Assembly: GCA_016934825.1 (NCBI GenBank)
Contig: JAFGSB010000033.1
Span: 1-61,265, forward strand
Direction: 5' to 3'
Source of the DNA: Candidatus Zhuqueibacterota bacterium
GTDB taxonomy: Bacteria > Zhuqueibacterota > Zhuqueibacteria > Residuimicrobiales > Krinioviventaceae
Length of the DNA stretch: 61,265 nt
Made by a program: the position numbers and the translations under genes. The notes below the pieces were generated by a model. That model ran no database searches and had not been told where the DNA came from. It was given only the letters and a program-made list of their open reading frames with translations. This document shows positions 31,772-55,904 of the stretch, in pieces (positions within the stretch are counted from its first letter, which is position 1; every line of letters starts with the position of its first letter).

Positions 31772-32104
31772 CTGTTTTTTCCACCTTCATGTATTGAATT
31801 AATGAGTAAAATAGAAAGTATAATTATAATAAAACTGAAAATTATTAATCAAAACGGTTAAAGAGTGATATTGGTGGTTTTAAAATCAAAAAAATTATTT
31901 AGATTTAGTATACCTAACAAATTTACAGGAAAAAAAATTGCATAAAATCCTGTTAACCTAAAATATTTTATGACGTGCTGTATTTTTTAAACGGTTGAAA
32001 TGCAAGCGGATTTTTCTTATATTGTTCAATAATTTATAACATGTCCCCATTTAACCGGACACCAGTAAACTCAAATAAATAATTGAGTAATCGGGAGGAA
32101 TCCA
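31772..32104. other. Divergent intergenic region with relic of a MITE-like element
   Basis: AT-rich spacer between the divergent SDR and ABC-F transcripts. A decayed right end of the MITE-like repeat lies at 31995-32067. No other feature is supported. Confidence 0.45.
31995..32067. mobile_element. MITE-like element, decayed right end (copy C)
   Basis: TTGAAATGCAAGCGGATTTT near 31995 resembles the conserved subterminal part of the full copies (TTGAACATGCAAACCGGATC), and TTAACCGGACACCAGT at 32051-32066 is the terminal repeat. No left end could be found in the preceding 200 bp. Confidence 0.5.
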
Positions 32105-35520: not shown

Positions 35521-35916
35521 ATTATCTTATCAACTCCGTCCCACCCCTTTTGCAGTATGAGACGGAATAAATCTTGTTTTGTTTTGTGTGAGCGATCAAT
35601 CCGGTTGTCCATTCGAGGTAGAGTGAACCGAAATTCACCTGCATTTGAATTTAACATGAAAGCAACAATCCCTCGCTGATTCCCCGGGTAGCGCAGATAT
35701 TTGTATTGATGTGATCGTACCTGGACAGTTACACAAAACAAAATCCCAACGCGAACAAATTTCTCCACATTTTTGAAGGTGCGACTGAATCAACCGCCCT
35801 TACTGAGTATTGTGCGTCGAGGAGTACAAAACAGATTGAAAAATACACCAAAATGCTTTTAGCCGGAAAATTAGAATTGATAATAATCCGATATTTTATT
35901 ATTTTACAGTCAATAT
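35521..35916. other. Intergenic region upstream of MITE copy A
   Basis: It contains a stem near 35537-35567 (CCGTCCCACC...GAGACGG) that resembles one at 50666. A plus-strand stretch at about 35744-35890 stays open for some 50 codons without a start and may be a gene remnant; no family was recognised. Confidence 0.3.
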
Positions 35917-36105
35917 CACTAGTGTCCGGTTAAACCCGGACGCGACCCTCGTAACATATTATTTTATTAACGTTTTCGGATATTATTTCATAAATTGATA
36001 TGTTTGAAAAAATTAAATTTTTTCATTTTTTTTGCTTGATTTTATTGAACATGCAAACCGGATCAGGCAGCGGTGTCCGTTAACCGGACACCAGTGAATC
36101 AATAT
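35908..36105. mobile_element. MITE-like element, full copy A with 9-bp target duplication
   Basis: The element spans 35917-36096 (180 bp). Its ends are CACTAGTGTCCGGTTAA and TTAACCGGACACCAGTG, inverted repeats matching at 16 of 17 positions. It is flanked by AGTCAATAT (35908-35916) and AATCAATAT (36097-36105), a 9-bp duplication with one change. Each end also folds on itself (GTCCGGTTAAACCCGGAC; GGTGTCCGTTAACCGGACACC). It has no coding capacity. The right duplication overlaps the first codon of the downstream gene. Confidence 0.85.
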
Positions 36106-36514
36106 GTTAAAAAAATACATGAAAAAAATATCGCTGAATACAATTTCGTTGCTGCTGTTTTTTGTCTATCTGTTTTACAGCCAGTTTTACCCGTTTGTGC
36201 ATATTCACACGCATGAAGAAAATATACAAAACCCGGGTATTGAACTGCGTTTTCATCCGGTTGACAATTGCAAATTCGGGCATGATTGTGATGACGTCCA
36301 TCATAAAAAGCATCAACATTTTATCGGTGCACAAAAATATACTCATATAAAAGTACAGAACAATATTACAGAACTTTTATACGATAATACTTTAGCAAAT
36401 CAACTGATTTTTTACATTCCGTCCGGCCAAAGTTTTCCCCGACTCGAGACGATATTTAACCCTCAAAATGTAAATATCCGATCCATATCAAGAGCTCCAC
36501 CACGTATTTCCTGA
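36104..36514 (+). CDS. His-rich periplasmic protein of the RND efflux operon
   Basis: 136 residues, or 131 from the second ATG (36119). A membrane-anchor or signal helix (ISLLLFFVYLFYSQFYPFVH) is followed by a His-rich stretch: HIHTHEE near residue 30 and CKFGHDCDDVHHKKHQH near residue 55, with two Cys. It probably binds metal in the periplasm and supplies the efflux pump encoded next. No family is recognised. There is no clear ribosome site, because the MITE-like element ends seven bases before the first ATG; the start codon uses bases of the target duplication. The 120-nt gap to the CusC-type gene is the largest within this operon. Confidence 0.6.
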   Translation: MLKKYMKKISLNTISLLLFFVYLFYSQFYPFVHIHTHEENIQNPGIELRFHPVDNCKFGHDCDDVHHKKHQHFIGAQKYTHIKVQNNITELLYDNTLANQLIFYIPSGQSFPRLETIFNPQNVNIRSISRAPPRIS

Positions 36515-36632
36515 ACATATCCATAAAAATCACATTCATTTATTGAGATCAAAAGAATAAATATTCTTTATCTCCTTATATCCATTAATTTATTACAAAA
36601 GTTAATAACTAACTGAATCATTGGAGATATTT

Positions 36633-37868
36633 ATGCCCCTGAAAAGGTTATTATTTTTCTCAGTTATGTTGATCCTGTCTGTTGCGTTATCAATCGCAGG
36701 TGACACTATCACGGTTTCGTTTCAAGACCTCGAAGATATGGCAAAAACAAACAGTCCGCAAATCCGGACAATAAACGAGATATATAATCTGCAGATTTTG
36801 GACAATAAAATCCAAAAGCAGTGGTCCAATCCGGAAATCGAGACAGAGATTGAAAACGTTAAAAATGACTTTGACCGCGAACGGGAGTACACCCTTGCGC
36901 TCAGCAAAAACTTTTCTTTTCCCTGGACAAGACATTACCTTCGAGCCGGTTTAAAGGAGCAATCCACAGCCTCTAAACAAAAAAAACAGGCGGATTATAT
37001 CAAAACTTTTGCCGGTTTAAAAACAGCCTATATTTTGCTGAAACTAATGGAGAGCCAAATCGAACATTATGAAGGTTTAAGCAAGATAATCGAAAATGCC
37101 GAGTTAACTGCCGCCAACCGACAATCGGAAGGCGCCATATCGGGTTTGGAACATCAGCTTATACAAATGTCACTGTTAAACCTGAAATCACAGTTACTAA
37201 ACACGTATCGGAAAAAGCGTGAATTAACCGACGTGTTTAAACTGGCAATGGGATTTTCCGCGGATCAGGATGTTCAATTAACATCTGTTATCGGGTTTAA
37301 AAATGTCAGTCTGGATTCCAATAATACTTTTATTCATCTTTTTACTACCACCCCGGAATTTTTGCACCATCAATCCCTGATCTCAGCGCAGAAACGAAAA
37401 ATACAACTGGAGAGAACAAATATTTTACCCGGTTTCCAGTTGAGCGGCGGCTACAAACAGGTCAATACCGATTTAAAGGGTTTTGTCGTAGGCCTGTCCA
37501 TGCCCCTGCCGCTGCTGAATACAAACCGGCCGCAAATCCGGAAAAGTGAAAGGGAACTGAACCTGTTGAACCTGAAGCTTGATGTACTGAAAAAAGACAG
37601 GATAATTAAAATCAAAACACAAATAAAATCGATCCGGGAATTTATGGAATTTTTACAGGTCAATTCCGGGCACATACAGGATACTCAATCTGTTATGCAG
37701 AATCTGGTTTACTCTTACCGGGAGGGATGGATCCCGCTGGGCGACGTGCTGGACGGAGTGCAGGTGCTGGCGGAAAGCGTGAACAGCTATTATGTACAGT
37801 TAGGGCAGTATTATGAAAATATATTTCAACTGGAAGCTTTGACCGGCAAAAATTTAATCGAGTTTTAG
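36633..37868 (+). CDS. CusC/CzcC-type outer membrane efflux protein
   Basis: 411 residues. A signal peptide (1-22) is followed by two TolC repeats with long coiled-coil helices: VSFQDLEDMAKTNSPQIRTI opens repeat 1 and ILPGFQLSGGYKQV marks the beta-strand of repeat 2, with the expected heptads around 110-200 and 310-360. It forms the outer-membrane channel of the tripartite pump. GGAG lies 6 nt before the ATG; a TTG at 36621 was rejected. It is 10 nt upstream of the adaptor gene. Confidence 0.88.
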   Translation: MPLKRLLFFSVMLILSVALSIAGDTITVSFQDLEDMAKTNSPQIRTINEIYNLQILDNKIQKQWSNPEIETEIENVKNDFDREREYTLALSKNFSFPWTRHYLRAGLKEQSTASKQKKQADYIKTFAGLKTAYILLKLMESQIEHYEGLSKIIENAELTAANRQSEGAISGLEHQLIQMSLLNLKSQLLNTYRKKRELTDVFKLAMGFSADQDVQLTSVIGFKNVSLDSNNTFIHLFTTTPEFLHHQSLISAQKRKIQLERTNILPGFQLSGGYKQVNTDLKGFVVGLSMPLPLLNTNRPQIRKSERELNLLNLKLDVLKKDRIIKIKTQIKSIREFMEFLQVNSGHIQDTQSVMQNLVYSYREGWIPLGDVLDGVQVLAESVNSYYVQLGQYYENIFQLEALTGKNLIEF

Positions 37869-37878
37869 GAGAATAAAA

Positions 37879-39447
37879 ATGAAATGGTTAATACTATCTT
37901 TAAATATACTGTTTTTTATTGTAACAGGATGCGGAAATCCGTCAGGTAAAAAGGCTGTTTCAGGTGAAACCGGACACGAACACGAAGGTCAAGCACACTT
38001 TTTTTCCGTAACAAAATGGACCGGTCAATTCGAACTATTTATGGAATACGAAGAACCGATCCTGTCGGAAGCTGTGCCGTTCATCATTCATCTGACCCGC
38101 ATGGACACCTTTAAACCTGTCACGCAGGGAACGGTTACCTTATCGTTTAAAAAGACGGGCAGCGAAAAAATAACCAGAGCAAATCTTCCCCTTGCGGAAA
38201 CGGGTATATTTACGTCGGAAATTACTTTACCGGATGCGGGTGAATATCTTTTGTCGCTGATCTATAAAAATGATATTTCCGAATATAATTTTGATATCGG
38301 AGAATTTCACGTGTTTGCCTCGGAGCAGGAAAAAAACGGTGACCATGAGTATGAATCGGAACACGCCCATGAACAGGAAGAAAATCATGCGGAAAACATT
38401 ACTTTTCTCAAAGAGCAGCAATGGCGCACCGACTTTGAGACGCAGGAATGCCGGATTATGCCGGTAAAATCATCCATAACCGCTATCGGCGAGGTTATCC
38501 CAAAACAAAGCGGTTACGCCGATATTGTGTCCCCGGTAGAAGGTCTGCTCAACGTTCAGTACAACAGGGATATGGTTTTTCCCGGAAAAACAGTCACAGC
38601 CGGAGAAAAACTGGTGACCCTGAGTCCGCCTGCTATTGGGGAAGACTCATGGACGGACAAACGGCTCGGTTACGAAAAAGCGCAAAAAGAATACGAACGG
38701 GCAAAAAATCTTTTGCAACGGCAGGCCATATCACAACGTGAATTTGAGCAGGTGCAAAAAGATTACCTGCTGCAAAAAGCCGGATATGAATCCATTCTGA
38801 ATTTATACGGTATTGAACAGGGTGAGAATAAAGCGACCGATAACATGTTTTTGAATATAACAACCCCAATCAATGGTATCGTTCATGACATAATGGTTTT
38901 ACCGGGACAAAAAGTATCCCCGGGACAAAAACTGATGACAATCATTGATCCGTCAACTGTTTGGTTAAAGGTGGATATATTCGAAAAGGACTTTTATCAA
39001 CTGGGCGCACACGGCGGCGCGTCCGCGGCGATTCCAGGAAAAGAGTCGCCTGTTATTTTAAATACGGACCAGCTCAAGCTGTTAAGTAAAGGGAATATTG
39101 TTGATCCGCAAAGCAGAACCATACCTTTTCTGTTCGAGGTCCGGAATAAGGAAAATCTTTTCAGGATCGGTCAATTCCTGCAGTTGGAACTCTATACCAC
39201 AGATGAAAAGCGGGCGCTGGCAGTTCCCAAAAGCTGCATCATTGATGAAGATGTACAGAAAATCGTGTTCGTTCAGCACCGGGGTGAATCATTTGAAAAA
39301 CGGATCGTTAAAACAGGGCCCGCTTTTAAGGACCACATCATTATTAAAGACGGTCTGCATGCCGGAGAACGCGTCGTGACCAGAGGCGCTTACCAGGTCA
39401 AACTGGCATCCATGAATAACATTGTTGGACACGGACATATTCATTAA
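37879..39447 (+). CDS. CusB/CzcB-type RND adaptor lipoprotein with His-rich N-domain
   Basis: 522 residues. Lipoprotein signal (lipobox FIVTGC, Cys near 18). Residues 30-160 form a beta-rich domain opened and closed by His clusters (GHEHEGQAHFF; HEYESEHAHEQEENH), likely metal ligands. The membrane-fusion core follows: ADIVSPVEGLLNVQYN (lipoyl half), a coiled coil (KAQKEYERAKNLLQRQAIS), NITTPINGIVHDIMVLPGQK, then the beta-barrel and membrane-proximal domains to LHAGERVVTRGAYQVKL. It links the RND pump and the TolC-type channel. Metal specificity (Cu/Ag versus Zn/Co/Cd) cannot be settled. Confidence 0.88.
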   Translation: MKWLILSLNILFFIVTGCGNPSGKKAVSGETGHEHEGQAHFFSVTKWTGQFELFMEYEEPILSEAVPFIIHLTRMDTFKPVTQGTVTLSFKKTGSEKITRANLPLAETGIFTSEITLPDAGEYLLSLIYKNDISEYNFDIGEFHVFASEQEKNGDHEYESEHAHEQEENHAENITFLKEQQWRTDFETQECRIMPVKSSITAIGEVIPKQSGYADIVSPVEGLLNVQYNRDMVFPGKTVTAGEKLVTLSPPAIGEDSWTDKRLGYEKAQKEYERAKNLLQRQAISQREFEQVQKDYLLQKAGYESILNLYGIEQGENKATDNMFLNITTPINGIVHDIMVLPGQKVSPGQKLMTIIDPSTVWLKVDIFEKDFYQLGAHGGASAAIPGKESPVILNTDQLKLLSKGNIVDPQSRTIPFLFEVRNKENLFRIGQFLQLELYTTDEKRALAVPKSCIIDEDVQKIVFVQHRGESFEKRIVKTGPAFKDHIIIKDGLHAGERVVTRGAYQVKLASMNNIVGHGHIH

Positions 39448-39482
39448 TTGACTTTTGACCGGATTTGAAAAGAGAGGACAAT

Positions 39483-42400
39483 ATGTTAGATAAATTAATG
39501 CGCACAAGCCTGCAAAACAGACTGGTCGTTATTGTCGCCAGTATTATACTACTTGTTGCCGGCGTTCTGGTTACGAACCGCCTGCCGGTTGATGTTTTTC
39601 CCGATCTGACAGCGCCGACCGTAACAGTCATGACTGAGGCGCACGGCATGGCCCCGGAAGAAGTCGAACTACTGGTTACGTTCCCCATCGAGACGGCCGT
39701 GAACGGCGCCACCGGCGTCAGGCGGGTGCGGTCAACCTCCATACAGGGATTTTCCACGGTATTTGTCGAATTTGAATGGGGTATGGATATTTACAGAGCC
39801 CGGCAGATCGTCACGGAAAAATTACAGGCCACGCAAAACAGTTTCCCGGACGGCGTCGACCAGCCCGTGCTGGCGCCGGTCGCATCGATTATGGGAGAAA
39901 TCATGACCGTCGGCCTGACCGCCGATTCGACCTCGCAAATGGACCTGCGCACCCTCGCTGATTTTATGATCAGAAGACGTCTGATGGCCGTACCCGGTGT
40001 TGCCAATGTGAAAGTTTATGGCGGCGAGGTCAAACAGTACCAGGTCCTGGTCGATCCTTATTTACTCAGAAAGTATGATCTCAGTCTGCATGAGGTGCAT
40101 CTGGCCGTGGCCGGGGCAAATTTCAACGCCGCCGGTGGATTTTATGTACAGTCCGGGAAAGAATACCTTATTCGCGGCATAGGCCGTATTCGCGACCTGG
40201 GGGAACTGCAACACACCGTTATTACCACCCGGAACGGGGTACCGGTTCTGCTGAGGGATGTGGGCAGAATCACCATCGGTATGGCGACCAAACTTGGCGA
40301 AGCCTCGGTTGATAATCAATCCGGTGTACTGATCGTCATCAGCAAGCAGCCGGAAGCGAACACCCTTGAGCTCACGAAAAGGCTTGACAATATACTGAAC
40401 AGCATCCGTAAAACACTGCCGGAAGATATTGAACTGCACACCGATATCTTTAAACAGGCCAATTTTATCACCTTGGCGATCCGAAACGTCACTCATGCTC
40501 TGCGGGACGGGGCGATACTGGTCATCCTGGTGCTGTTGATTTTTCTGGGAAACGTCCGCACCACGCTGATCTCTTCGCTGGCGATACCGCTGTCCCTGAT
40601 GTTTTCCATCCTCATTCTGAAACTGCTCAACCTGTCCATCAATACCATGACCCTTGGGGGTATGGCAATCGCCATCGGCGTACTGGTTGACGACGCGATC
40701 ATTTACGTGGAGAACGTGTACCGCAGGCTGTTACTGAACAGCAAAAAAGCCGTTTCACAGCAAAGCGCTTACAATGACGTGATACTCAAAGCGTCGACAG
40801 AAATCAGGGCGCCGATCGCCATGGCAACTTTTATTGTGATCATCGTTTTTCTGCCGTTGTTCTTTCTCAGCGGTATCGAGGGTCGTATGCTGAAACCGCT
40901 GGGATTCGCCTATGTTATTTCCATTTTCGCGTCACTCCTTGTGGCAGTTACCGTAACTCCGGCGTTAAGTTCATATTTTTTACGAAATGTGTCCGCGAAC
41001 GGCAAAAGGGAAAATATAATTGTCGCTTTTTTGAAAAAACTATATATCCCGATTTTACAATGGTGTTTAAGACATAAAAAACTGGTTGTCGGAGCTGGTT
41101 TTATTCTGCTTATTTTCGCGATAGCCCTGCTGCCGACCCTTGGCCGTTCCTTTTTGCCGGAATTCAACGAAGGGACGCTGAATATCAGTATTGCCACATT
41201 ACCGGGCACTTCACTGGAGGAATCGGATAAAATCGGCCGCATGGCGGAAACAATTCTTTTGGAACATCCCGCCGTGGTATCCGTCAGTCGACGTACGGGA
41301 CGAACGGAAATGGACGAGCATTCGCTCGGCTCGCACGCACACGAGGTCGAGGCCATAATCGATTTCGACAAGATCAGCAAGCAGCAACTGCTTGAAGACA
41401 TCCGCAAGGGTCTGTCGCTGCTGCCCGGCAGCGTTTTCAATATCGGGCAGCCGATCAGCCACCGCATCGACCACATGCTGTCCGGAACGAGGGCGAGCAT
41501 CGCCATCAAACTGTTCGGCCCGGAGCTGGGGCAGTTACGCTCCCTGGCGGCACAGATCGAAAATGAAATACGGACCATCCCGGGCATCGCCGACCTGTCC
41601 TCGGACCAGCAGACCGAAATCCCGCAGGTACGTATCCGGGCCAACCGGCAAAAAATGGCTTTATACGGCATAACCGTGGCCGATGTGGATGAAATGATCG
41701 ACACCGCGTTCCTTGGCGCGAAAACATCACAGGTGTATGAAGTACAGAACCAGTTTGATCTTGTCGTCCGGTACGATCAGAAATACCGGGATAACCTTGA
41801 TGCCGTAAAAAACAGTCTGATCGACACGCCCACGGGTTCGAGGATCCCTCTGGAAATGGTGACCGATATTTCCATCGGCAGCGGCCCCAATTATATCAGC
41901 CGGGAAAACGTACAGCGGAAAATGGTGGTGCAGGCCAACGTCGCGGGACGTGATATCCGCGGCGTTGTGGACCAGATCCGGACCGGTATTGAGCAGCATG
42001 TATCCCTGCCGGCCGGTTATTATATCGAATACGGCGGCCAGTTTGAAAGCGAACAGAACGCCACACGCATCATCACACTGCTCAGTTTGCTGTCCATCTT
42101 TTTTATTTTTATTTCCCTTTACCTGGAATTCCGGAACATACGCCAGGCCCTGCTGGTGATGGTCAACCTGCCGCTGGCGCTGATCGGCGGTGTTATTGCC
42201 ATTTTCATCACGGACGGTATCATCAGTATTGCCTCATTGGTTGGATTTATTACCCTGTTCGGTATTGCCGTCAGAAACGGGATATTAATGATATCGCATT
42301 ACAACCATCTGATCGAGGTTGAGGGCAAAAGCCTGAAGGATGCGGTTATACAAGGCTCCGCGGAACGGCTCAACCCGATCATCATGACGGCGCTGACCAC

Positions 42401-42566
42401 CGGTCTGGCGTTGACGCCGCTGGCGTTCGCGGCGGACAAACCCGGTAACGAGATACAATCCCCTCTGTCCGTTGTTATCCTCGGCGGACTGATCACGGCG
42501 ACCTTCCTGAACATGATCGTTTTACCGGTGCTGTTTGAAAAGTTTGGTTATGTGAAGAAAAAATAA
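39483..42566 (+). CDS. CusA/CzcA-type heavy-metal RND efflux permease
   Basis: 1027 residues, twelve membrane helices in two halves with large periplasmic loops. N-terminus LMRTSLQNRLVVIVASIILL, then VFPDLTAPTVTVMTEAHGMA with P.EVE.LVT. Helix 4 reads GGMAIAIGVLVDDAIIYVEN, with two Asp in the proton-relay position. A second half starts near 41050 (KKLVVGAGFILLIFAIAL; GRSFLPEFNEG). These are HME-RND features. I chose the ATG at 39483, 4 nt after AGAGGA, over a TTG at 39465. It is the last gene of the operon. Exported ion is probably a metal cation; the exact one is unknown. Confidence 0.92.
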   Translation: MLDKLMRTSLQNRLVVIVASIILLVAGVLVTNRLPVDVFPDLTAPTVTVMTEAHGMAPEEVELLVTFPIETAVNGATGVRRVRSTSIQGFSTVFVEFEWGMDIYRARQIVTEKLQATQNSFPDGVDQPVLAPVASIMGEIMTVGLTADSTSQMDLRTLADFMIRRRLMAVPGVANVKVYGGEVKQYQVLVDPYLLRKYDLSLHEVHLAVAGANFNAAGGFYVQSGKEYLIRGIGRIRDLGELQHTVITTRNGVPVLLRDVGRITIGMATKLGEASVDNQSGVLIVISKQPEANTLELTKRLDNILNSIRKTLPEDIELHTDIFKQANFITLAIRNVTHALRDGAILVILVLLIFLGNVRTTLISSLAIPLSLMFSILILKLLNLSINTMTLGGMAIAIGVLVDDAIIYVENVYRRLLLNSKKAVSQQSAYNDVILKASTEIRAPIAMATFIVIIVFLPLFFLSGIEGRMLKPLGFAYVISIFASLLVAVTVTPALSSYFLRNVSANGKRENIIVAFLKKLYIPILQWCLRHKKLVVGAGFILLIFAIALLPTLGRSFLPEFNEGTLNISIATLPGTSLEESDKIGRMAETILLEHPAVVSVSRRTGRTEMDEHSLGSHAHEVEAIIDFDKISKQQLLEDIRKGLSLLPGSVFNIGQPISHRIDHMLSGTRASIAIKLFGPELGQLRSLAAQIENEIRTIPGIADLSSDQQTEIPQVRIRANRQKMALYGITVADVDEMIDTAFLGAKTSQVYEVQNQFDLVVRYDQKYRDNLDAVKNSLIDTPTGSRIPLEMVTDISIGSGPNYISRENVQRKMVVQANVAGRDIRGVVDQIRTGIEQHVSLPAGYYIEYGGQFESEQNATRIITLLSLLSIFFIFISLYLEFRNIRQALLVMVNLPLALIGGVIAIFITDGIISIASLVGFITLFGIAVRNGILMISHYNHLIEVEGKSLKDAVIQGSAERLNPIIMTALTTGLALTPLAFAADKPGNEIQSPLSVVILGGLITATFLNMIVLPVLFEKFGYVKKK

Positions 42567-45509: not shown

Positions 45510-45705
45510 ATATCATACCACCAGTGTCCGGTTAAACCCGGACACCACTCTGGAAATATTATTTTGTTAAAGTTATTAGATATGAAATCATTATTTGACT
45601 TGTATGTAGAAATTAAATTGTTATAATTATATTAATTGATTTTATTGAACTTGTAAGCCGGATCAGGATGTGGTGTCCGTTAACCGGACACCTGTGATAT
45701 CATAC
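45510..45705. mobile_element. MITE-like element, full copy B with perfect 9-bp target duplication
   Basis: The element spans 45519-45696 (178 bp), with ends CACCAGTGTCCGGTTAA and TTAACCGGACACCTGTG (15 of 17 inverted matches). It is flanked on both sides by ATATCATAC (45510-45518 and 45697-45705), a perfect 9-bp duplication. The last 65 bp closely match copy A (GATTTTATTGAAC.TG.AA.CCGGATCAGG); the middle is AT-rich and less conserved. It has no ORF. The pattern is that of a non-autonomous DNA transposon moved by a DDE transposase that makes 9-bp staggered cuts. Confidence 0.88.
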
Positions 45706-46376
45706 AGTAAATTTTAATTATTGCTCAATATTTAAATATTTTATTCGTACAGTATTGCCTGCTACACTATTTCGGGGAACTGTGGAATGCGTATCTGCGC
45801 TCTAATGTGTTTTATCAAGTGTAACTGTTCACAAGTACAACAGTCTGAACGTGTTTGTAACCAGAAATTCCGTGATTGACGATTTCCTACGTCCCAAATT
45901 GCATTTCACCGGAAATTGGAATTGAATCTTTGATTCAAAGGCATGCCAAAAAACCTTTCCCGTTCTATCCCATCTGAAGGAAAAGACGGTAATAGCCTTC
46001 AAAACTTCTCTGTAATAATTCTGTAATTCCAACAATGTCCGTATTTTAAGTTGATTTGTTTAATCCTCATTTCAAAGATTAACTTTTTAACTTTTTTATG
46101 TTCCAGGCAGGACTTGAAAAAACTAAAAAAATTGCTTGCCTGTTTTTATCAATTTCATATATTTAACACTGGTGTCCGGGTTAACGGGACAGTGGTGATA
46201 TTTTAATGATTCAAGAAAAAGTAACAATTAAAACAGGGGGCGGAGATAGCATTAAATTATATAATATTGATATAACTTTTTAATCATTGATCTTTTGTCA
46301 TCAGCATCGGTTTTGTAAAAGATACAAACAATAACGCGCTAAAAAATAACGGATCGTATTCAAAAGGACCTGTCAA
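45706..46376. other. Intergenic region with relic MITE and terminator-like stem
   Basis: AT-rich. A stem CAGGCA...TGCCTG followed by TTTTT lies at about 46105-46148, with a 30-nt loop. A minus-strand ORF at 45829-46035 has no ribosome site or recognised family. The relic MITE (46167) is listed separately. Confidence 0.35.
46167..46197. mobile_element. MITE-like relic, both ends joined (copy D)
   Basis: CACTGGTGTCCGGGTTAA and TTAACGGGACAGTGGTG share their TTAA, so the 31-bp sequence looks like the two terminal repeats of the MITE-like element with everything between deleted. It is flanked by ATATTTAA and ATATTTTAA, which may be the remains of a target duplication. Confidence 0.55.
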
Positions 46377-52560: not shown

Positions 52561-55347
52561 ATGAAATATAAAATATTCATTTTTGCCTTTTTATTTTATT
52601 TTCAATCCGCGATCCCGCAAATTCTCACATGGTCCCCCCTGTTCTCCACCCCCGATGATACCATCACCATCGTCTATGACGCGACGGAAGGCACACGGGG
52701 ACTGGTCGGCGCGTCCGAGGTTTACGCGCATACGGGAGTTATCACAGAAAAAAGTAACAATCCGTCTGATTGGCGATATGTAAAAACCGCCTGGGGTCAA
52801 AACACGCCGGAAACCAGACTCGATCCGCTGGGCAACGACCAGTGGCAAATCCGGTTTCACATCAGAAGTTATTACGGCGTCCCGGTGACGGAAAAAATTC
52901 TCCAACTGGCATTTGTGTTCCGCAACGCCGCGTGTACACGGGAAGGCAAAGATGTCGGCAACAAGGACATTTTTTTGCCCGTATACGAAGAGGGTTTGAA
53001 TGTAGCTTTTTTAATGCCGACGCCCATTTTCCCGGAACTCAATGACAGCACGGAGATCATCGCCGCCGGCAGCCGCTCGGTCTCCCTGAAATTATTTATT
53101 GATAATGAATTAAAACACACCGTAAATAAGGACACGCTAAAATATACCATCACAGCGACCGAATATGTCAAAAAAAGGCTCAAAATCACCGCTGTTGATT
53201 CAACCGGCGCGGAAAAATCTTTGTCCACCTATTATATCGTCCGGGAACCGGTCAATATTGCAGCCCTGCCGGACAATGTCATCGACGGCATTAACGAAAT
53301 CAATGAAACCACGGTCACGCTTGTGCTGCACGCGCCGTTTAAGGAATTCATATACGTCATCGGCGATTTTAATGATTTTGAAGCCGACCCACTTTATTAT
53401 ATGAACAAAACGCCGGATGGTGAGCGCTGGTGGTTCACTCTAAGAAACCTGGAACCGGACAGGGAAGTCCTGTTTCAATATTATGTCGACGGAAAACTAA
53501 AAATCGCCGATCCCTATACCGATAAAATCATCGACCCAGTCTATGACCCGTTAATCCCGGAAGAGACCTATCCGACCCTGACCCCCTATCCGGCGGATCA
53601 AACTACGGACATTGTGTCCACTTTGCAAACGGCACAGCAGGATTATAACTGGGAAATAACGGATTTTCAAAAACCGCCAAAGGAACAACTTGTCATTTAC
53701 GAACTGCTGATCAGGGATTTTATAAAAGAGCATAACTATCAAACCCTCATCGACACCCTCGATTATTTACAAAATTTAGGTATCAATGCCGTCGAGCTTA
53801 TGCCGATAAATGAATTCGAAGGCAATTCAAGCTGGGGATACAATCCCTCTTTTTATTTTGCCCCGGATAAATACTATGGTCCGAAAAACGATCTGAAAAA
53901 ATTTATCGACGCAGCGCATAAACGGGGCATCGCCGTTATACAGGATATCGTCCTCAACCACGCTTATGGTCAATGTTCGCTGGTCCAGTTATACGCCGGC
54001 GACCTGTCCGAAAGTCCGTGGTTTAACGTGACCTCTCCCAATCCGACCTATTATTGGGGATTCGATTTTAACCATGATAGACCGGCCACACGGGATTTTG
54101 TCGACCGGGTCCTCAAATACTGGGTGGAGGAATATCACATCGACGGTTTTCGTCTCGATTTTACTAAGGGCTTTACCCAAACACCCGGAGAGGGCTGGTA
54201 TTATGACGAATCGCGCATTAATAATTTGAAACGGATCGCCGACCGGGTGTGGGAAACCGATCCGGAAACGTTCCTGATCCTGGAACACCTGACCGTCAAC
54301 ACCGAAGAAAAAGAACTGGCTGATTATGGTATGATGCTGTGGGGCAAAATGACGGAGCAGTACAATGAAGCGACCATGGGGTATCATGATAACGATAAAT
54401 CGGATCTTTCATGGGGCTGGTACAAACGCCGGGGCTGGGCAGAACCGAACCTCGTCACATATATGGAAAGCCACGATGAAGAACGGCTGATGGTCAAAAA
54501 CCTGCAATGGGGCAACTCGAGTGGTGATTACAATATCAAAGACCTGTCCACCGCTCTGGACAGGATGAAAATGGCGGCCGCCTTCTTTTTTACCATTCCC
54601 GGCCCGAAAATGATCTGGCAGTTCGGCGAGCTGGGATACGATTATTCCATCGATTACAACGGCAGGGTCGGCGAAAAGCCCATCCGCTGGGATTATTTTC
54701 AAATGCAGGAGAGACGCGCGTTATACGATGTGTTTGCCGCATTGATCAAACTGAAAACCCGGCATGACGCCTTTAACAGTCAAAATGTCATTTTGTCCAC
54801 AGTCGGCGCGACCAAAAAGATCAAGATCGAACATGAAACGATGAACGTGGTGATCCTCGGCAATTTCGGCGTAACGCCGCAGAACATTATGCCGAACTAT
54901 TATCACGACGGCGCCTGGTATGATTATTTTTCCGGCGATTCGATAAATGTGACCGATCCGTCGGCGCTGGTGTCCTATCTGCCGGGAGAATTTCATATAT
55001 ACACAGATGTCCGGCTGGAAAAACCGCACATTACCGGTCTTCGTGACGAGTTGATCTCGGGTAAACCCGCTCAATTCCGGCTGGCGCAGAACTATCCCAA
55101 TCCGTTTAACCCGTCTACAACCATACAATATGAATTGCCCGAACCGTCCTATGTGACACTAAATATATATAATATCGCCGGACAAAAAGTTATTACCCTT
55201 GTCGACGCGGCGCAAAAAGCGGGATCCTACCGCGTAAGCTGGAACGGCCTGGATTTATCCGGCCGCGCCGTTTCCGCCGGAGTCTACTTTGTCCGGATTT
55301 CGACAAAAAATTATTCGGCAACAAAAAAGATGGTTCTGGTGAGGTGA
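52561..55347 (+). CDS. GH13 alpha-amylase family enzyme with type IX sorting domain
   Basis: 928 residues. Signal peptide 1-20. An N-terminal beta domain (20-150) and a CBM48-like domain (about 250-350, VYVIGDFNDF-like GDFNDFEADP) precede the barrel. The four GH13 regions are visible: DIVLNHAYG (about 460), GFRLDFTKGF with the nucleophile Asp (about 530), LILEHLTV with the acid Glu (about 575) and ESHDEERL with His-Asp (about 635). The last 85 residues are a type IX sorting domain (QNYPNPFNPSTTIQYEL, AGVYFVRIS, SATKKMVLVR). It is a secreted or surface enzyme acting on alpha-glucans. AAAGG lies 8 nt before the ATG. Confidence 0.92.
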   Translation: MKYKIFIFAFLFYFQSAIPQILTWSPLFSTPDDTITIVYDATEGTRGLVGASEVYAHTGVITEKSNNPSDWRYVKTAWGQNTPETRLDPLGNDQWQIRFHIRSYYGVPVTEKILQLAFVFRNAACTREGKDVGNKDIFLPVYEEGLNVAFLMPTPIFPELNDSTEIIAAGSRSVSLKLFIDNELKHTVNKDTLKYTITATEYVKKRLKITAVDSTGAEKSLSTYYIVREPVNIAALPDNVIDGINEINETTVTLVLHAPFKEFIYVIGDFNDFEADPLYYMNKTPDGERWWFTLRNLEPDREVLFQYYVDGKLKIADPYTDKIIDPVYDPLIPEETYPTLTPYPADQTTDIVSTLQTAQQDYNWEITDFQKPPKEQLVIYELLIRDFIKEHNYQTLIDTLDYLQNLGINAVELMPINEFEGNSSWGYNPSFYFAPDKYYGPKNDLKKFIDAAHKRGIAVIQDIVLNHAYGQCSLVQLYAGDLSESPWFNVTSPNPTYYWGFDFNHDRPATRDFVDRVLKYWVEEYHIDGFRLDFTKGFTQTPGEGWYYDESRINNLKRIADRVWETDPETFLILEHLTVNTEEKELADYGMMLWGKMTEQYNEATMGYHDNDKSDLSWGWYKRRGWAEPNLVTYMESHDEERLMVKNLQWGNSSGDYNIKDLSTALDRMKMAAAFFFTIPGPKMIWQFGELGYDYSIDYNGRVGEKPIRWDYFQMQERRALYDVFAALIKLKTRHDAFNSQNVILSTVGATKKIKIEHETMNVVILGNFGVTPQNIMPNYYHDGAWYDYFSGDSINVTDPSALVSYLPGEFHIYTDVRLEKPHITGLRDELISGKPAQFRLAQNYPNPFNPSTTIQYELPEPSYVTLNIYNIAGQKVITLVDAAQKAGSYRVSWNGLDLSGRAVSAGVYFVRISTKNYSATKKMVLVR

Positions 55348-55377
55348 TATAATTTAACTGAAAAAATTTATTCTTTT

Positions 55378-55839: not shown

Positions 55840-55845
55840 AAGGAA

Positions 55846-55904
55846 GTATTCGGATACAAAAAAGATGAATCTGGTGAGGTGATATAATCTAACTAAAAAA
55901 AATA
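55846..55904 (+). pseudogene. Duplicated 3' end of the amylase gene
   Basis: From TATTCGG to the A run, about 57 bases match the last codons, stop codon and 3' flank of the amylase gene (55312-55367) at about 50 positions. It encodes the tail of a type IX domain (KKMNLVR) and nothing upstream of it. Confidence 0.65.

Follow-up and report, generated by a model that had tools for sequence, protein, structure and literature searches.

The window, a 61,265-nucleotide stretch of DNA analysed here as a whole, contains two short repeats of about 180 bp that raise the question of whether they are mobile and, if so, what moved them and what they leave behind. The preliminary description had called them a MITE-like family with 17-bp inverted ends and 9-bp target duplications, and coordinates, ends and duplications were all re-read as it gave them (Table 1): the duplication is perfect (9/9) around copy B, as claimed, and has one mismatch (8/9) around copy A, and neither copy has a gene inside it in the ORF lists, in keeping with the claim that no ORF is carried. 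The two copies are 79% identical over a 142-bp right part and 82% identical over the left 45 bp. A right subterminal block of about 65 bp had been described as conserved, and our family alignment agrees, both ends and approximately the last 65 bp being best kept. No match to known RNA families was found for the MITE.

A property that had escaped the preliminary description is that each MITE end is itself a 19–22-bp palindrome, in which the tip is followed by an inner inverted copy (family consensus: left, GTGTCCGGTTAAACCCGGACAC; right, GTGTCCGTTAACCGGACAC), and these ends form strong hairpins. In a further copy of the host genome, lying between ask and dapB, the right palindrome is turned round compared with the rest of the family, a hint of hairpin or cruciform events. 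Taking all the evidence together, we consider it probable that the MITE was moved by an IS4-family transposase and that solo palindromes of 29–34 bp arose from it by collapse between the end palindromes.

Table 1 Features of the repeat family in the window
Feature	Position	Strand	Sequence and basis
Degraded tip or solo remnant	32040–32067	-	CATGTCCCCATTTAACCGGACACCAGTA; no convincing duplication
Copy A, left target duplication	35908–35916	.	AGTCAATAT; direct reading and family statistics
MITE copy A, 180 bp	35917–36096	+	sequence reading, genome search, duplication statistics
Copy A, left-end palindrome	35922–35943	.	GTGTCCGGTTAAACCCGGACGC, tip and inverted inner copy; family consensus
Copy A, right-end palindrome	36073–36091	.	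GTGTCCGTTAACCGGACAC; reading and family consensus
Copy A, right target duplication	36097–36105	.	AATCAATAT, 8/9; direct reading
Copy B, left target duplication	45510–45518	.	ATATCATAC; direct reading
MITE copy B, 178 bp	45519–45696	+	sequence reading, genome search, duplication statistics
Copy B, left-end palindrome	45524–45545	.	GTGTCCGGTTAAACCCGGACAC; reading and family consensus
Copy B, right-end palindrome	45673–45691	.	GTGTCCGTTAACCGGACAC, same letters as copy A
Copy B, right target duplication	45697–45705	.	ATATCATAC, 9/9; direct reading
Probable solo palindrome, 31 bp	46167–46197	.	CACTGGTGTCCGGGTTAACGGGACAGTGGTG; 470 bp from copy B

Copy A sits immediately before a row of efflux genes (window 36104–42566, with an outer-membrane efflux protein at 36621 and an AcrB-type pump at 39465), a position in line with a leaning towards AT-rich sequence upstream of genes, and as it ends only 8 bp before the first ORF, it may influence expression of the row. 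Elsewhere in the window, two 58-nt direct repeats (55309–55366 and 55844–55901; 88% identical, 535 bp apart) lie near the 3' end of a 928-amino-acid ORF and beyond that ORF.

Target duplications, an empty site and a burst confined to the species show transposition

In the host genome, a 5.39-Mb draft in 179 contigs, a copy-B query and a profile scan both found many further copies. Copy B gave at least 43 matches (40 of 205 candidates scored). The core GTGTCCGGTTAA has 95 exact occurrences genome-wide, whereas its reversed control pattern has none, and the 17-bp tip, allowing up to 3 mismatches, occurs 321 times against 24 for its control. A profile scan covering 1.15 Mb of contigs, of which a few were picked for holding copies, detected 37 separate elements at E ≤ 1e-5, of which 23 were well preserved (E < 1e-25); extrapolated from this base, the whole genome would hold about 170 copies, about 110 of them well preserved. 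Median pairwise identity among the 35 best copies was 79%, and by this measure the copies are old.

Where both flanks were readable, the flanking 9-mers were perfect in 16 of 42 members and had at most one mismatch in 25 of 42, compared with 0.28% at that threshold for mispaired flanks. Duplication lengths of 5–8 and 10–13 bp were at background, 9 bp alone rising above it, and the insertion targets are AT-rich.

Comparison of empty sites in related genomes had been proposed as a check, and one such site was found. A copy at C32:103268–103447 (L079:1269–1448) lies inside an ask-dapB-dapA row, at a distance of about 20 bp from the start of dapB, and is flanked on either side by AATTTATAA; in a genome of the same genus (G001), ask and dapB are 15 bp apart and the 180-bp insert is missing. 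A search of the same-genus genome for an ortholog of the region around copy A found none, and no related empty sites were seen within the host's own genome in the sequence examined. The MITE had no counterpart in 59 related genomes, where matches were short tip or AT-rich stretches only, and an exact right-end 21-mer had no match in the collection of genome contigs searched. Together, the exact 9-bp duplications, the empty site and the species-restricted burst demonstrate transposition.

A related MITE of 162 bp, with palindromic left and right ends, is present in two genomes (G015 and G017) of another family in the same order. Of 20 full copies of this MITE of genus g12, 17 are flanked by 9-bp duplications in which no more than 2 positions differ, and a relaxed palindrome search found the same palindrome in bins named candidate division KSB1. 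When the flanks of the G015 and G017 elements were compared, they gave no occupied orthologous site and instead revealed a common host repeat. A further palindromic family, with core GTGTCCCAAATGGGGACAC, occurs in G017 (L204, L273 and L302); its tips are related, its core is distinct, and it too has an apparent solo.

For the movement itself, we propose that an IS4-family cut-and-paste DDE transposase, from an IS elsewhere or a close extinct cousin, would recognize the 17-bp tips CACYRGTGTCCGGTTAA, excise the 180-bp element and insert it, through a cut staggered by 9 bp, into AT-rich DNA that is mostly intergenic.

Solo palindromes within target duplications

Palindromes of 29–34 bp that stand alone between 9-bp duplications, likewise overlooked in the preliminary description, were found in both lineages, their cores matching either the left or the right palindrome of the MITE. 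Of the 28 non-MITE palindromes in G015 and G017 that have the left core (29 bp), 18 had a duplication with at most 2 mismatches, 11 of these being perfect (controls, 0.26%), as did 10 of 14 with the right core (34 bp; controls, 0.55%). The host's own genome has solos at L180 (C12), L219 (C61), C72:22332, C118:48773 and C106:132393, with duplications matching at 7–8 of 9 positions; a permissive palindrome scan of the same genome returned 559 candidates, mostly noise, of which 8 had a duplication with at most 2 mismatches, some of them real. The palindrome near copy B in the window is probably another solo, although its flanks, ATATTTAA and ATATTTTAA, agree only when one indel is allowed.

Solos could be formed from MITEs if the hairpin-forming, repeated tips allowed the left and right tip copies to slip against each other; the interior would thus be deleted, leaving a 29–34-bp palindrome within the original target duplication. 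We infer, from their anatomy, that the solos are mainly products of such collapse, because their core classes number exactly two and equal the two MITE palindromes, and because L203 and L204 have the same core, and the same asymmetric pair of tips (CACTGG/TATTGG), as the MITE subfamily to which L212 belongs.

The host repeat in G017 (GATTCTGTGTCAACAGAATCCAA...AAGTATCTTT...TTTGCAGCAGTCACC...GGCGCAAATACCC) carries nested insertions at one and the same target, AGTRTCTTT, which is occupied by a full MITE in L208 and L277, by a 34-bp solo in L293 and by a different palindromic MITE in L204. As a different MITE occupies the site in L204, this target may be a hotspot.

The same small palindromes might instead be independently mobile minimal elements, each consisting of two fused tips, with the 162–180-bp MITEs being two palindromes plus a spacer; we regard this as unlikely. 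It would suit the well-kept duplications of the solos (11 of the 18 left-core duplications are perfect) and their greater number than full MITEs among the G015 and G017 loci gathered, but these loci were gathered by pattern and the solo:MITE ratio is biased accordingly. It would also suit the tips, which vary in step in solos (CACGAG/CACGAG, CAGGGG/CAGGGG and CCCGGG/CCCGGG) and less so in MITEs (mean agreement of 5.1/6 against 3.6/6, p = 1e-4), and the base at position 5, A being present there in 11 of 16 right tips of MITEs as opposed to 6 of 28 solos (p = 0.003). This better tip matching is not predicted by simple deletion; it could be explained by independent mobility of solos, or by hairpin-templated correction, which can homogenize palindrome arms. 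Against independent movement stand the two core classes and the MITE-specific tip pairs seen in some solos, as deletion predicts. In addition, the known synaptic arrangement of IS4-family elements does not allow two adjacent 17-bp tips to be bound together within 29 bp. Were this unlikely alternative true, with solos moved by an IS4-type enzyme, a bacterial DDE transposon could consist of just two fused tips.

An IS4-family element with matching tips

The family had been proposed to be a non-autonomous transposon mobilized by an IS elsewhere in the genome, and a search for an IS with a similar tip supports this. Contig C159 starts with a 1273-bp IS that has CATTAGTGTCCGGTTAA at both ends, the inner 12 bases being identical to those of the MITE tip, and it likewise makes a 9-bp duplication. 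Its 382-amino-acid transposase has DUF4372 and DDE_Tnp_1 domains (PF01609, 4.9e-31), scores 270 bits with the NCBIfam IS4 model and contains a complete YREK motif (YKARWEIELFFKTIK at residue 287); it is the sole DUF4372 transposase found in the host genome. This IS also forms the end of contigs C154 and C136, and the flanks of C154 and C159 have GGTTAATTT in common, which is the 9-bp duplication of the IS. The IS copies recovered are identical to each other. In three other genomes of the order, CACTAGTGTCCGGTTA or a nearly identical tip goes with the DUF4372 transposases.

The C159 IS or an extinct cousin is therefore the likely source of the MITE transposase, since tip and duplication length are common to both. 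Descent of the MITE by simple internal deletion of the C159 IS was ruled out: the MITE interior is unrelated, and only the tips are shared. In agreement, blastn of the IS against the sampled genome gave no match to the MITE, with no interior similarity next to the tips. The IS has no inner inverted tip copies. A diverged, internally deleted relic of the IS itself lies at C6:1279–1419 (L123), comprising IS bases 1–51 followed by 386–431 at 86–89% identity.

Against this particular pairing, only the tips are in common, no DUF4372 transposase was found in G015 and G017 alongside their related MITE, and the MITE is old whereas the IS is recent; the actual partner may therefore have been another IS. 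It is quite unlikely, in our judgement, that the enzyme which moved the MITE has no relation to the C159 IS, with the likeness of the tips due to convergence or coincidence. The lack of similarity between the two interiors would fit such an origin, as would G015 and G017, in which a related MITE is present and no DUF4372 transposase was found. However, coincidence would have to account for twelve identical core bases, a CA terminus and an identical 9-bp duplication length all at once, as well as for the like tips found with DUF4372 IS elements in three more members of the order; and the relic at C6 indicates that older copies of the IS existed.

Genomic setting and known systems

Among 36 copies in the 1.15-Mb sample, 1 lies between convergent and 14 lie between divergent genes (p = 0.002 by count and 0.04 by length, with crude gene calls taken from longest ORFs). 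That the repeats are regulatory or terminator cassettes under selection, and not mobile DNA, could draw on this bias and on the strong hairpins at the ends but is highly improbable, given that transposition is shown by the exact duplication of 9 bp, by the empty site and by a burst confined to the species, that the bias in position is slight and accords with targeting of AT-rich upstream DNA, that a terminator would predict the convergent sites that are so rare, and that orientation within tandem gene pairs (14:7, p = 0.19) is not significantly biased. We judged a terminator or regulatory role to be weak on these position and orientation counts.

The repeats of copies A and B are short and without a transposase gene, have terminal inverted repeats and a constant-length duplication, occur as dispersed copies with empty sites and share their ends with an autonomous element, the IS on C159; they are a new sequence family within a kind of element already known. 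A high-copy MITE family and a probable IS4 partner are thereby added for an uncultured and little-studied lineage that is related to candidate division KSB1. Among the papers searched, none dealt with insertion sequences of KSB1 or with DUF4372 alongside MITEs.

IS4Sa, a subgroup tabulated with ends CA------T, 8–10-bp duplications, lengths of 1150–1750 bp and a YREK motif (Table 1 of PMC2266710), covers the C159 IS in all of these: its ends CATTAGTGT, 9-bp duplication and 1273 bp fall within the tabulated ranges, so that it resembles IS4Sa in size (1.27 kb), CA------T ends, duplication length and YREK, a resemblance based on these tabulated features (PMC2266710). The C159 IS has only its tips in common with the MITE, whose ends are palindromic and whose interior is unrelated.

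Like Correia, Chunjie, QMITE and MITEAba12 elements, the MITE is short, ORF-less, bounded by inverted repeats, flanked by duplicated target, high in copy number and intergenic (PMC10969869; PMC6382973). Unlike them, it is a new sequence family with both ends palindromic and with 29–34-bp solos that keep the duplication. In nearly precise excision of Tn10, deletion between short end repeats removes all but a small palindrome, which stays within the 9-bp duplication of the original insertion. We liken solo formation to this process, although here it is read from genome sequence only, in MITEs, and is apparently frequent.

The target duplications mark the 29–34-bp palindromes as transposition products, and their proposed origin would provide a concrete route from ordinary transposons to REP-like small palindromes; it also raises the testable question of how small a piece of DNA a DDE transposase can move or leave in place. 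The solos are, like REP and REPIN palindromes (PMC3116915, PMC3733652), very short, dispersed and intergenic, and the same likeness extends to the very small mobile repeats of cyanobacteria, going by a title cited in those two papers. REPs and REPINs, however, lack a target duplication and go with a RAYT gene; MITEs and solos alike are flanked by 9-bp duplications and so are not of that kind. Unlike both the REP/REPIN palindromes and the cyanobacterial repeats, the solos described here lie in 9-bp target duplications and carry IS4-type tips, features that point to a DDE transposase.
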